The position numbers were made by a program, and so were the translations under genes. A stretch of 64,000 nucleotides of DNA from Tateyamaria sp. syn59 (lineage in GTDB: Bacteria; Pseudomonadota; Alphaproteobacteria; Rhodobacterales; Rhodobacteraceae). Positions 19,702-21,377 of this stretch are shown here, piece by piece. How positions within the stretch are numbered: position 1 is the first letter of the stretch; every line of letters begins with the position of its first letter. The stretch lies in contig NZ_VCBA01000008.1 in assembly GCF_007995245.1 (NCBI RefSeq), positions 63,940 through 127,939 on the forward strand, given 5' to 3'. The notes beneath the pieces were generated by a model. It was not told where the DNA came from. It worked only from the letters and a program-made list of their open reading frames with translations, and did no database searches.

Positions 19702-20343
19702 ATGACACGCGCGCACCTTCCCGGCATCCTTGCCATGGCCATCATCGTTGTGGCCTCGAACATCCTTGTCCAGTTCCTGTTCGGCAACTGGCTAACCTGG
19801 GGGGCGTTCACCTACCCGCTGGCCTTCCTTGTCACCGACATCATGAACCGGGTCTACGGCGCGGGCCCTGCGCGCACGGTCGTCTTCGTCGGCTTCATCG
19901 TCGGCGTTTTCTGCTCGCTCGTCGGCACTCAGATCATGATCCAGGGCGACGGGTTCACCTACCCGGCGGTCACCTTCCGCATCGCTATCGGCTCCGGTTT
20001 GGCCTTCCTGACGGCGCAACTGCTCGACGTCGGCATATTCTCTGCCCTGCGCGAAGGGACATGGTGGAAGGCGCCGCTCGCCTCGACCATCATCGGCAGT
20101 TCGGTCGACACGGCCATCTTCTTCACCATCGCGTTTTCCGGCACGCTGGTCTGGCTTGAGCCGGGCAACGACGTGTCCTGGGCGGGCGAAGTGCTGCCGC
20201 TTCTTGGCATGGGGCCAGAGGTGCCGCTTTGGGTATCGCTCGCCATGGCCGACTGGATGGTCAAGCTGAGCCTCGCGCTCATTGCTTTGGCACCGTTCCG
20301 CTGGTTCACGGCTGGCGTAGCCCAGCCTGCGGAAATCCGTTGA
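19702..20343 (+). CDS. yhhQ: Queuosine precursor transporter YhhQ (VUT family)
   Basis: A 213-residue membrane protein with about six helices. 'FGNWLTWGAFTYPLAFLVTDIMNRVYG' resembles the conserved core of COG1738 (TM helices 1-2), and 'WWKAPLASTIIGSSVDTAIFF' the later signature. The family imports preQ0/preQ1 for tRNA queuosine synthesis. The ATG at 19702 fits the family's N-terminus; the open frame upstream is not coding. It is probably controlled by the preQ1-like element at 19665-19693. Confidence 0.92.
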   Translation: MTRAHLPGILAMAIIVVASNILVQFLFGNWLTWGAFTYPLAFLVTDIMNRVYGAGPARTVVFVGFIVGVFCSLVGTQIMIQGDGFTYPAVTFRIAIGSGLAFLTAQLLDVGIFSALREGTWWKAPLASTIIGSSVDTAIFFTIAFSGTLVWLEPGNDVSWAGEVLPLLGMGPEVPLWVSLAMADWMVKLSLALIALAPFRWFTAGVAQPAEIR

Positions 20344-20387
20344 CTTTCACGGACGCTGTGCCACCATCGGATGTGAGTTCAACATTT

Positions 20388-20404
20388 GAAAGGAGGTGAT
20401 CCAG
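20388..20404 (+). promoter_or_regulatory. Extended Shine-Dalgarno complementary to the 16S rRNA 3' end
   Basis: GAAAGGAGGTGATCCAG is the exact reverse complement of the conserved 3' terminus of bacterial 16S rRNA (CTGGATCACCTCCTTTC). Ordinary sites pair over 4-6 bases. AGGAGG ends seven bases before the GTG at 20404, an ideal spacing for the tiny ORF. The last base of the match is the first base of that GTG. Confidence 0.85.
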
Positions 20405-20460
20405 TGTCGAGAAAGGTATTGGAGAGAGGTGTCGGAACAGCTTGGGAGGTCGCCTGCTAG
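20404..20460 (+). CDS. Tiny ORF (18 aa) with a perfect ribosome-binding site
   Basis: GTG to TAG encodes MSRKVLERGVGTAWEVAC (18 residues). The ribosome-binding site is the strongest possible (17-nt match to the anti-Shine-Dalgarno region). The peptide is basic at the front, with one Trp and a C-terminal Cys, and has no run of identical codons as in classical attenuators. It starts 60 bp after yhhQ and is followed by a stem-loop, a possible anti-Shine-Dalgarno (20515-20520) and an intrinsic terminator, so the whole unit ends before the VOC gene. It may be a leader peptide, a small protein or a ribosome-titrating RNA. No family is recognised. Confidence 0.55.
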   Translation: MSRKVLERGVGTAWEVAC

Positions 20461-20492
20461 GGCAGCCCCGCGCGGCGCAGACCGCCAAGTTG

Positions 20493-20511
20493 GTCGGTTG
20501 ATCTAACCGGC
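20493..20511 (+). other. Stem-loop in the tiny-ORF transcript
   Basis: GTCGGTT (20493-20499) pairs with AACCGGC (20505-20511) around a GATCT loop: seven pairs including one G-U. It lies between the tiny ORF and the sequence ACCTCC (20515-20520), which can pair with GGAGGT of the extended Shine-Dalgarno (20392-20397) or with GGAGGT inside the tiny ORF (20445-20450). Confidence 0.5.
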
Positions 20512-20535
20512 ACAACCTCCGAAACATTTCGAGAA

Positions 20536-20561
20536 GGGCCGCCCACCGGGTGGCCCTTTTT
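20536..20561 (+). terminator. Rho-independent terminator
   Basis: GGGCCgCCC and GGGtGGCCC form a nine-pair stem (one G-U) around a three-base loop, followed directly by TTTTT. This is a textbook intrinsic terminator. It ends the yhhQ/tiny-ORF region 20 bp before the VOC gene, so that gene needs its own promoter or read-through. Confidence 0.85.
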
Positions 20562-20580: not shown

Positions 20581-20937
20581 ATGGCACCACCGCTCAGCAG
20601 CCTCGTGCTCTACACCTCGAAGATCGATGAGATGGTCCAATTCTACACAGACCATTTTGGCTACTCCGCGCATATCAAAGAAGGCGACCGCATCGTCGAG
20701 TTGCGCCCGCCCGGCGATGGCATCACCCTGCTGTTGCACCCGATGGGCAAGGGTCGCAAGCAGGGGCAAGTGCTGGTCAAGCTGGTGTTCGCCATCAACG
20801 ACGTCGCGGGGTTTTGCGACACCGCACGCGCCAAGGGGCTTGAGTTCGGCGCGCTGCACAAGGCCGACGGCTATGTTTTCGCCAACGCCAAAGATCCGGC
20901 AGGCAATTCAGTCAGCGTGTCCGGCAGGCTCGCCTAA
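20581..20937 (+). CDS. VOC family protein (glyoxalase/bleomycin-resistance fold)
   Basis: A 118-residue single VOC module made of two beta-alpha-beta-beta-beta units: 'LYTSKIDEMVQFYTDHFGY' at the start and 'FAINDVAGFCDTARAKGLEF ' in the second half, ending with 'DPAGNSVSV'. Proteins of this fold bind a metal and act as lyases, dioxygenases or antibiotic-binding proteins. The specific substrate cannot be told. The metal-ligand set (usually His/Glu) is incomplete by eye. AAGGGAAG precedes the ATG. arfB follows 20 bp downstream and may be co-transcribed. Confidence 0.85.
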   Translation: MAPPLSSLVLYTSKIDEMVQFYTDHFGYSAHIKEGDRIVELRPPGDGITLLLHPMGKGRKQGQVLVKLVFAINDVAGFCDTARAKGLEFGALHKADGYVFANAKDPAGNSVSVSGRLA

Positions 20938-20957: not shown

Positions 20958-21377
20958 ATGCGCATCAACGACGACATAACGATCCAGGATTGGGAACTGA
21001 GCGAGCAATTCGTGCGCGCCTCCGGTCCCGGCGGGCAGAACGTGAACAAGGTGGCCACAGCCGTCGAGCTACGCTTCGAGGCGGAGCGATCCCCGTCCCT
21101 GCCTGGTCCCGTCAAAACCCGGCTCAAACGGCTCGCCGGTCGGCGCTGGACCACCGAAGGTGCCCTGATCATTCAATGCGATGAAACCCGAAGCCAGGCC
21201 CGCAACCGCGACATTGCGCGTCAACGCCTGACCGACCTGATCCGCAAGGCGCTGGTCAAGCCCAAGCGCCGCATCGCGACAAAGCCCACGCTGGGATCGA
21301 AAAAACGCAGGCTGAAAGCCAAAAAAGAGCGCGGCGCGGTCAAAGCCCTGCGCGGTCGTGTCGAAACTGACGACTAG
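20958..21377 (+). CDS. arfB: Alternative ribosome-rescue peptidyl-tRNA hydrolase ArfB
   Basis: A 139-residue protein with the GGQ motif (Gly25-Gly26-Gln27 in 'ASGPGGQNVNK') and a basic C-terminal tail rich in Lys/Arg. These are the two features of ArfB (YaeJ): the GGQ hydrolyses peptidyl-tRNA and the tail enters the empty mRNA channel of a stalled ribosome. The length is typical. It follows the VOC gene by 20 bp. Confidence 0.95.
   Translation: MRINDDITIQDWELSEQFVRASGPGGQNVNKVATAVELRFEAERSPSLPGPVKTRLKRLAGRRWTTEGALIIQCDETRSQARNRDIARQRLTDLIRKALVKPKRRIATKPTLGSKKRRLKAKKERGAVKALRGRVETDD

Follow-up and report, generated by a model that had tools for sequence, protein, structure and literature searches.

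The element and its position in the window

The window, i.e., the whole stretch of 64,000 nucleotides of Tateyamaria sp. syn59 that was analyzed, carries on its forward strand the genes yhhQ (Pfam Vut_1, 19702-20343) and arfB (Pfam RF-1, 20958-21377), the product of which we take to be a ribosome-rescue hydrolase, with a short putative transcription unit (hereafter rreR) and a glyoxalase/VOC gene (20581-20937) between them. A previous sequence-only reading had placed the unit between yhhQ and the VOC gene, in agreement with the Pfam matches; the next gene, arfB, completes the picture, and the link to it had gone unnoticed.

The unit lies on the forward strand and begins with a probable promoter, whose -35 box TTGACT (20340-20345) is kept in aligned upstream regions: a TTGAC-like box (≥ 4 of 5 letters) was present in 114 of the 122 upstream regions of the Rhodobacterales-type set (defined below), at -50 to -47 from the Shine-Dalgarno sequence (SD) in 97 of these 114, with the aligned consensus TTTGACAaAcaCaAAATCTGTGgCA. 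The stretch from 20340 to 20375 (TTGACA..AAATCTGTGGCA) is unusually conserved in the Rhodobacterales-type loci, beyond the needs of a bare promoter, and may hold a regulator site. The extended SD GAAAGGAGGTGATCCAG (20388-20404), the final G of which is base 1 of the start codon, is the exact reverse complement of the 3′ end of the genome's own 16S rRNA over 17/17 positions. The 17-nt match had thus been read correctly, while its description as complementarity to the whole 16S tail has to be narrowed to about 14 nt of free tail, as the final three letters of the match (CAG) lie opposite helix 45. With up to one mismatch, the 17-mer has a single other site in the 4.57 Mb genome, as reverse complement at the 3′ end of a 16S gene on contig C3 (identity backed by an Rfam SSU_rRNA_bacteria match on L249); at up to three mismatches, 0.15 chance matches are expected in the window, and the sole second match there has three mismatches.

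The SD is followed by an ORF of 18 codons (VSRKVLERGVGTAWEVAC) that starts with GTG at 20404 and ends with TAG at 20460, and the unit is closed by an intrinsic terminator (20531-20561) with a core of nine pairs, one of them G-U, or 14 pairs when the A/U flanks are included; both had been described as such from the sequence. A terminator-like hairpin above the score used by the script was found in 121 of the 124 Rhodobacterales-type loci. For the RNA that extends from the SD through the terminator, the computed folding energy is -83 kcal/mol (z -4.1), a stability reached by 1/200 dinucleotide shuffles. In this predicted fold, GGAGGT of the SD (20392-20397) forms the 5′ arm of a six-pair lock helix (P1) with an internal anti-SD, ACCTCC (20515-20520), located 5′ of the terminator; hairpin P2 (20400-20423, TCCAGTGTC with GGTATTGGA) encloses the start codon; and helix P3 connects a segment within codons 12-14 (20438-20445) with one past the stop codon (20485-20492). 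A local hairpin in the interval between P3 and the anti-SD (20493-20511) comes from the fold alone. Directly 3′ of the stop codon, many Rhodobacterales-type loci share GGGCAGCCC (20458-20470 in the window), a near palindrome that lies within a predicted stop-codon hairpin and could conceivably also pair between two RNA molecules.

Conservation and spread

Among 289 genomes of the same class as the window, judged from the genome names to be Alphaproteobacteria, 33 contained the pattern GAAAGGAGGTGATCCAGTG (SD plus start, ≤ 1 mismatch) and none its reversed control. Within the window's family, 207 of 246 genomes matched with up to two mismatches, a count that includes antisense 16S matches and at which the reversed control matched six genomes (G356, G469, G487, G494, G502, and G518). 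Of 299 genomes sampled across the phylum, 26 carried an exact shorter pattern; all of these belong to the same class, and the approximately 213 rows labelled 'same phylum' were without it. The matches listed (at least 120 stretches) belong to Rhodobacterales, Hyphomicrobiales, Caulobacterales, Rhodospirillales, and Sphingomonadales, plus unplaced MAGs. One listed match lies outside Alphaproteobacteria, in a MAG labelled Gemmatimonadota (L089, 21-codon ORF), and may be due to chance, mis-binning or transfer. In Azospirillum (L126, L161, L177), the same extended SD precedes an ORF of 57-59 codons, in contrast to the short ORFs of the other loci, and the beginning of its product (MSHGAxPV..LFGLA.LLTAG.A.A) resembles a signal peptide. 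A recurrent extra match in the family, GCGAGGAGGTGATCCAGTG (L312-L315; four genomes examined), was discarded as a coincidental SD-like stretch inside a long coding frame, presumably of a DnaE-type polymerase.

For most comparisons we used a Rhodobacterales-type set of 124 loci, selected for a peptide pattern and for an ORF length of 15-22 codons; it takes in L187 (a MAG labelled Pararhizobium) and some MAGs without family name. A search of related genomes for the block had been proposed by the sequence-only reading, and the block is conserved: the ORF has exactly 18 codons in 118/124 loci, a proportion conditioned by the way in which the set was chosen. When eight excluded relatives were added, i.e., five near relatives (L194, L198, L207, L226, L228) and three in-family loci of another type (L061, L066, L227), 18 codons were counted in 121/132.

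Divergent orthologues

A covariance model, seeded with 38 of 42 loci selected for diversity, was run on 46 genomes of the family without a clean SD match, picked by eye among the matches listed, and matched 25/46 genomes at E ≤ 1 and 19/46 at E ≤ 0.01. Of 26 returned loci, 22 were counted; among the four set aside, L270 and L276 do not resemble the element, L272 is uncertain, and L275 proved to be a genuine divergent copy. The 11-nt sequence GAAAGGAGGTG is exact in 21 of these 22 divergent members, which are without the 17-nt match: the start-proximal half of the complement (GATCCA) is gone, and was probably lost rather than gained, because other orders carry it. The ORF has exactly 18 codons in 16/22, and yhhQ lies upstream in 21/22. 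A 7-nt complement to the SD follows the stop codon in 18/22 (in one of them mostly via wobbles) and is absent from the other four. Because the divergent members keep the 11-mer without it, the 17-nt match appears to be dispensable; by this comparison, the 11-mer, the length of the ORF and the synteny are more stable.

Gene neighbourhood and the association with arfB

The usual order is yhhQ - rreR - arfB. In the Rhodobacterales-type set, yhhQ is located upstream on the same strand in 112/124 loci and arfB within 1.7 kb downstream in 97/124, on the same strand in all 97; among the other 27 loci, 19 had less than 1.7 kb of downstream sequence to search and four less than 1 kb. The VOC gene that separates rreR from arfB in the window has a similar gene near 1/124 loci, presumably the window itself, and its insertion looks local. 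In 49 of the 97 loci, at most 60 nt (minimum 14 nt) separate the terminator stem from the projected start of arfB, and in these arfB is probably reached by read-through, because such a gap leaves little room for a separate promoter.

The two genes also co-occur. Of 80 rreR-bearing genomes, 79 had arfB, compared with 6 of 18 genomes without detected rreR (Fisher p 2.8e-10, with genomes taken as independent). The 80 are part of the genomes with loci and include two with elements outside the 18-codon set (G337, G355); in another group of 35 genomes, most of them pattern-positive, arfB was found in 33 and was missing from G439, whose element is of another type, and from G428, an assembly of 460 contigs. 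'Without rreR' means no match by the pattern, the model or a looser pattern: of 21 genomes without a pattern or model match, nine had arfB, and three of these nine (G396, G467, and G518) carry a divergent rreR missed by the model, leaving the 6/18. Up to eight of the 12 arfB-lacking genomes could have a hidden rreR with p still < 0.05 (computed with 7/19 in place of 6/18). The shared absence could reflect one linked deletion or one clade. In three of the six arfB-bearing genomes without detected rreR (L278, L279, L280), yhhQ is still separated from arfB by a terminator-like hairpin, as would be expected if a deletion had taken the ORF part and spared the terminator.

These data bear on the possibility that rreR is a cis-acting leader of arfB, in which translation of the ORF decides on terminator read-through into the ribosome-rescue gene. 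The constant strand of arfB in the 97 loci and in 20/22 divergent members, where it also lies downstream, the short gaps, and the absence of arfB from 12 of the 18 genomes without detected rreR speak for it. Against it, the element is kept where arfB is remote: arfB lies on another contig or > 200 kb off in 7 of the 79 arfB-bearing rreR genomes, five of which, in the 18-codon set, retain the ORF and the anti-SD, and the divergent element of G518 also has arfB on another contig. Linkage to yhhQ is at least as frequent as that to arfB. No downstream arfB was found at loci of other types; there, no neighbour family was common to more than four loci, and the next downstream gene was on the opposite strand in 61/99 (heuristic gene calls). 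A trpL-type attenuator of arfB is not supported, as no antiterminator pairing with the terminator arm emerged in the two segments tested, own and swapped partners scoring 5.30 vs. 5.38 for the stop-codon segments and 7.02 vs. 6.98 for the 5′ block. Titles and abstract beginnings retrieved for ArfB attenuation yielded nothing relevant. On balance, we regard a cis-acting leader as unlikely. In two Hyphomonadaceae MAGs with elements of another type (L105, L164), arfB lies 175 and 1030 nt upstream, on the opposite strand, which does not fit a leader and is possibly a trace of the same association.

The open reading frame

The ORF has features of a translated sequence. In the class-wide matches, base 1 of the start codon, where altered, changes to A (9) or T (2) and never to C, a pattern expected of a true start; the Rhodobacterales-type loci start with GTG (122) or ATG (2), and all three stop codons occur at the fixed position (TGA 51, TAG 48, TAA 25). 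The ratio of non-synonymous to synonymous change was 0.73 in the true frame vs. 0.95 and 1.12 in the other frames, indicating weak purifying selection, and LERGVGT is well preserved across the set. As for the proposed check of whether variation follows codon rules, this bias and the three stops point that way, though weakly: codons 4, 5, and 13-18 show mostly non-synonymous change, with the third base held in some (entropy table with 115 unique of the 118 loci). Given the weak synonymous excess and the freely changing codons, frame and length therefore appear, at the sequence level, to be better kept than the peptide.

A functional micropeptide whose translation is secured by the extended SD would account for the start and stop patterns, for the modest synonymous excess confined to the true frame and for the preserved LERGVGT. 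Its case is weakened by the non-synonymous codons listed above, by the location of codons 12-15 within P3, by the divergent orthologues, which hold the length and hardly the peptide (e.g., MIIGKQEQLVKVTGERTI), and by the unrelated peptides, mostly of 14-35 codons, encoded at loci of other types. Moreover, translation of the related rreB is reportedly weak, being impeded by its extended SD, and its peptide is said to be unstructured, which agrees with the earlier doubt that such strong pairing raises output. We consider a functional micropeptide unlikely.

Predicted RNA structure

A full 7-nt partner of GGAGGTG was located ≤ 95 nt past the stop codon in 117/123 loci, compared with a shuffled mean of 42.4 and maximum of 51. 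Folding and energetics were computed for 115/124 loci, those with a findable CTCC anchor, and the mean probability of pairing between SD positions 4-10 and the anti-SD was 0.86-0.94 per position; the first four P1 pairs are partly given by construction, because the anchor chose the loci, while the 117/123 count is unaffected. In 40 sampled real loci (out of 129 in the Rhodo18 group), the SD was paired at 0.92 vs. 0.71 when the downstream part was shuffled, a real excess, even though the purine-rich SD is sticky in any case. Covariation cannot prove P1, which shows one-sided G-U changes only, because the 16S tail constrains the SD. At SD position 11, the facing bases were A-C 57, G-C 39, A-U 10, C-G 3, and other 6 (n = 115), a pairing signal that is suggestive at most.

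All eight pairs tested in P2 were standard in 89/124 loci, seven in 29, and six in 6. For P3, swapping the partners among 112 loci lowered the mean stem from 8.10 (own) to 6.14 (swapped). Over the whole structure, 142 cells were changed on both sides vs. 39.5 after shuffling in a model-fitted alignment, and 42 vs. 18.3 in a plain MAFFT alignment; many of these two-sided, compensatory changes fall in P3, where codons 12-15 are linked with the segment past the stop. Alignment A2 comprised 78 matches, including the seed loci and six of other types (L066, L081, L087, L101, L105, L164). Taken together, the start site is predicted to be closed in the finished RNA of Rhodobacterales-type loci, weakly so in the window.

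A class-wide SD/anti-SD lock was rejected, as the 7-nt complement was not enriched at loci of other types (53/106 vs. 44.2 shuffled). SD pairing in real vs. downstream-shuffled RNAs was 0.67 vs. 0.74 in the VSHC group (40 of 48 sampled), 0.63 vs. 0.70 in MSSE, 0.74 vs. 0.82 in Ancylobacter, 0.71 vs. 0.72 in the long group, 0.74 vs. 0.70 in the rest, and 0.87 vs. 0.77 in Brady14. The VSHC group has a different pairing, in which TCATTGTC, located past the start codon, joins with GACAATGG, located 5′ of the terminator; the mean stem was 7.79, as against 6.59 in shuffles (maximum 6.94). In the MSSE, misc, long, and Brady groups, pairing of this type was no better than in shuffles.

Energetics and proposed mechanism

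Energies were computed for bare RNA, not ribosomes. On average, 10.4 kcal/mol is needed to open the 16-nt site and pairing with the 16S tail returns 28.9, with a net value below zero in 115/115 loci; opening the 7-nt SD costs a mean of 6.8 kcal/mol and nets only -4.5, below zero in 113 of the 115. The lock of the window is weak by comparison, its 7-nt SD opening for 2.2 kcal/mol and its 16-nt site for 4.9. The computed unpaired fraction of the SD was 0.50 before the anti-SD is transcribed and 0.04 after.

Conservation, ORF frame and length, pairing partners, P3 covariation, synteny and co-occurrence were established by sequence comparison, and they suggest the following scheme. The unit would consist of a promoter, a small mRNA of about 175 nt with the 18-codon ORF, and a terminator. 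Once the RNA is complete, the SD would be paired to the internal anti-SD, which mimics the 16S 3′ end, and the start codon would be held in a hairpin, making the closed state the default. A free 30S subunit would open the site by strand displacement: its 16S tail could nucleate on the mostly unpaired GAAA next to the lock and zip up 11-17 pairs, displacing the internal helix of 6-7 pairs. Translation could take place as long as the anti-SD has yet to be transcribed, or at a high abundance of free 30S subunits, and the tight pairing between SD and 16S rRNA would slow the escape of the ribosome, so that little peptide is formed. From the patterns above, we infer the strand displacement, the sensing of 30S subunits and any effect on arfB or on ribosome rescue.

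Two further explanations have to be set against this scheme. As a purely non-coding decoy with an incidental ORF, the RNA would serve to titrate 30S subunits or the 16S tail. The extended complement is indeed preserved across Alphaproteobacteria together with unrelated ORFs, and rreB RNA reportedly co-sediments with 30S; yet a fixed 18-codon frame that ends in any of three stops is hard to explain without translation, and the titration of ribosomes from a single locus would require a very high abundance of the RNA, so we consider a decoy very unlikely. Chance or artefact is contradicted by the conservation and by the controls, and its probability is negligible.

The RNA is likely autonomous, to judge by the lack of common neighbours at loci of other types, and regulated by ribosomes, with a conserved function in initiation or 30S binding and not in the peptide. 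As a whole, we give even chances to an autonomous small mRNA with a self-locked initiation site that is opened by free 30S subunits and possibly tied to ribosome rescue. A more specific version, which we consider doubtful, is that rreR acts as a sensor of the ribosome state, its copy of the 16S anti-SD shutting the start and the 30S subunit opening it by toehold exchange over 11-17 nt, coupled to ArfB-dependent rescue in Rhodobacterales. The coupling would act in cis where arfB closely trails the terminator and otherwise in trans.

Comparison with known systems

By all sequence features tested, the window element fits rreR, a known kind of small mRNA. This type is reportedly represented by rreB in Bradyrhizobiaceae and by rreR, with 18 codons, in the Rhodobacter/Roseobacter lineage, and rreB RNA is said to be stabilised upon loss of the start codon; we take a GTG and an 18-codon ORF right after the SD in Rhodobacter/Roseobacter relatives to be the definition of rreR. 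As in rreR/rreB, the SD of the window element is complementary to the 16S 3′ end over ≥ 16 nt (17/17) and is followed by the 18-codon GTG ORF; the conserved promoter-like and terminator sequences are compatible with a transcript of its own. The same ORF pattern was seen in named relatives, including Dinoroseobacter, Roseovarius, Paracoccus, and Gemmobacter. The 17-nt SD, the GTG start and the 18-codon ORF are therefore common to rreR/rreB and the window, with 14 codons in Bradyrhizobium, where the loci (e.g., L101, L168) encode VSxxKRCHLAGIAR. Among the features tested, none distinguishes the window element from rreR.

The sequence-only reading was right in that the unit is conserved, its ORF looks translated and its SD is extreme, but it overlooked the internal anti-SD and regarded the unit as matching no annotated class, a view that must be given up: rreB/rreR were already described, to judge by the title of Hahn et al. 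2017 (RNA Biol 14:1353, doi 10.1080/15476286.2016.1256534) in the reference list of PMC7298713, and CC2171, of the same kind, is in Rfam. That citing paper was the only rreB/rreR literature found by our searches, and the passages available from PMC5082802, PMC10117765, and PMC10783764 contain no description of rreB.

At the Rfam gathering threshold, no match was obtained in the window. Membership in CC2171 (RF01867), a Caulobacter sRNA, was rejected, as the window scored 39.4 bits (E 3.6e-7), below the gathering score of 75, while L121 from Brevundimonas clears it with 86.1 bits. The 5′ part of CC2171 is nearly that of the window (CAACAxxxGAAAGGAGGUGAUCCAGUGUC), and both have a terminator, whereas the ORF and the closing helix differ (CAUUGUCA/UGACAAUG); from the sequence, the Caulobacter RNA looks like a relative. 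A literature search for CC2171 together with Caulobacter and sRNA gave no match, and CC2171 is absent from the main text, as far as available, of a Caulobacter ribosome profiling study (PMC4117421). An extended SD also takes part in control at the ribosome in rpsU of Flavobacteriales, according to the parts of PMC9976891 available; this gene of Bacteroidia encodes the ribosomal protein bS21 and is likened to rreR by the extended SD alone.

The rreR/rreB type gains a testable anatomy from this comparison, namely an anti-SD predicted to lock the site, a frame fixed at 18 codons while the peptide drifts, and the association with a gene for ribosome rescue, which raises the question of whether bacteria sense free 30S subunits by an RNA copy of the 16S tail. 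The element of the window is not a new class, and what is added here to the known type is its comparative structure, its variant forms and its association with arfB.
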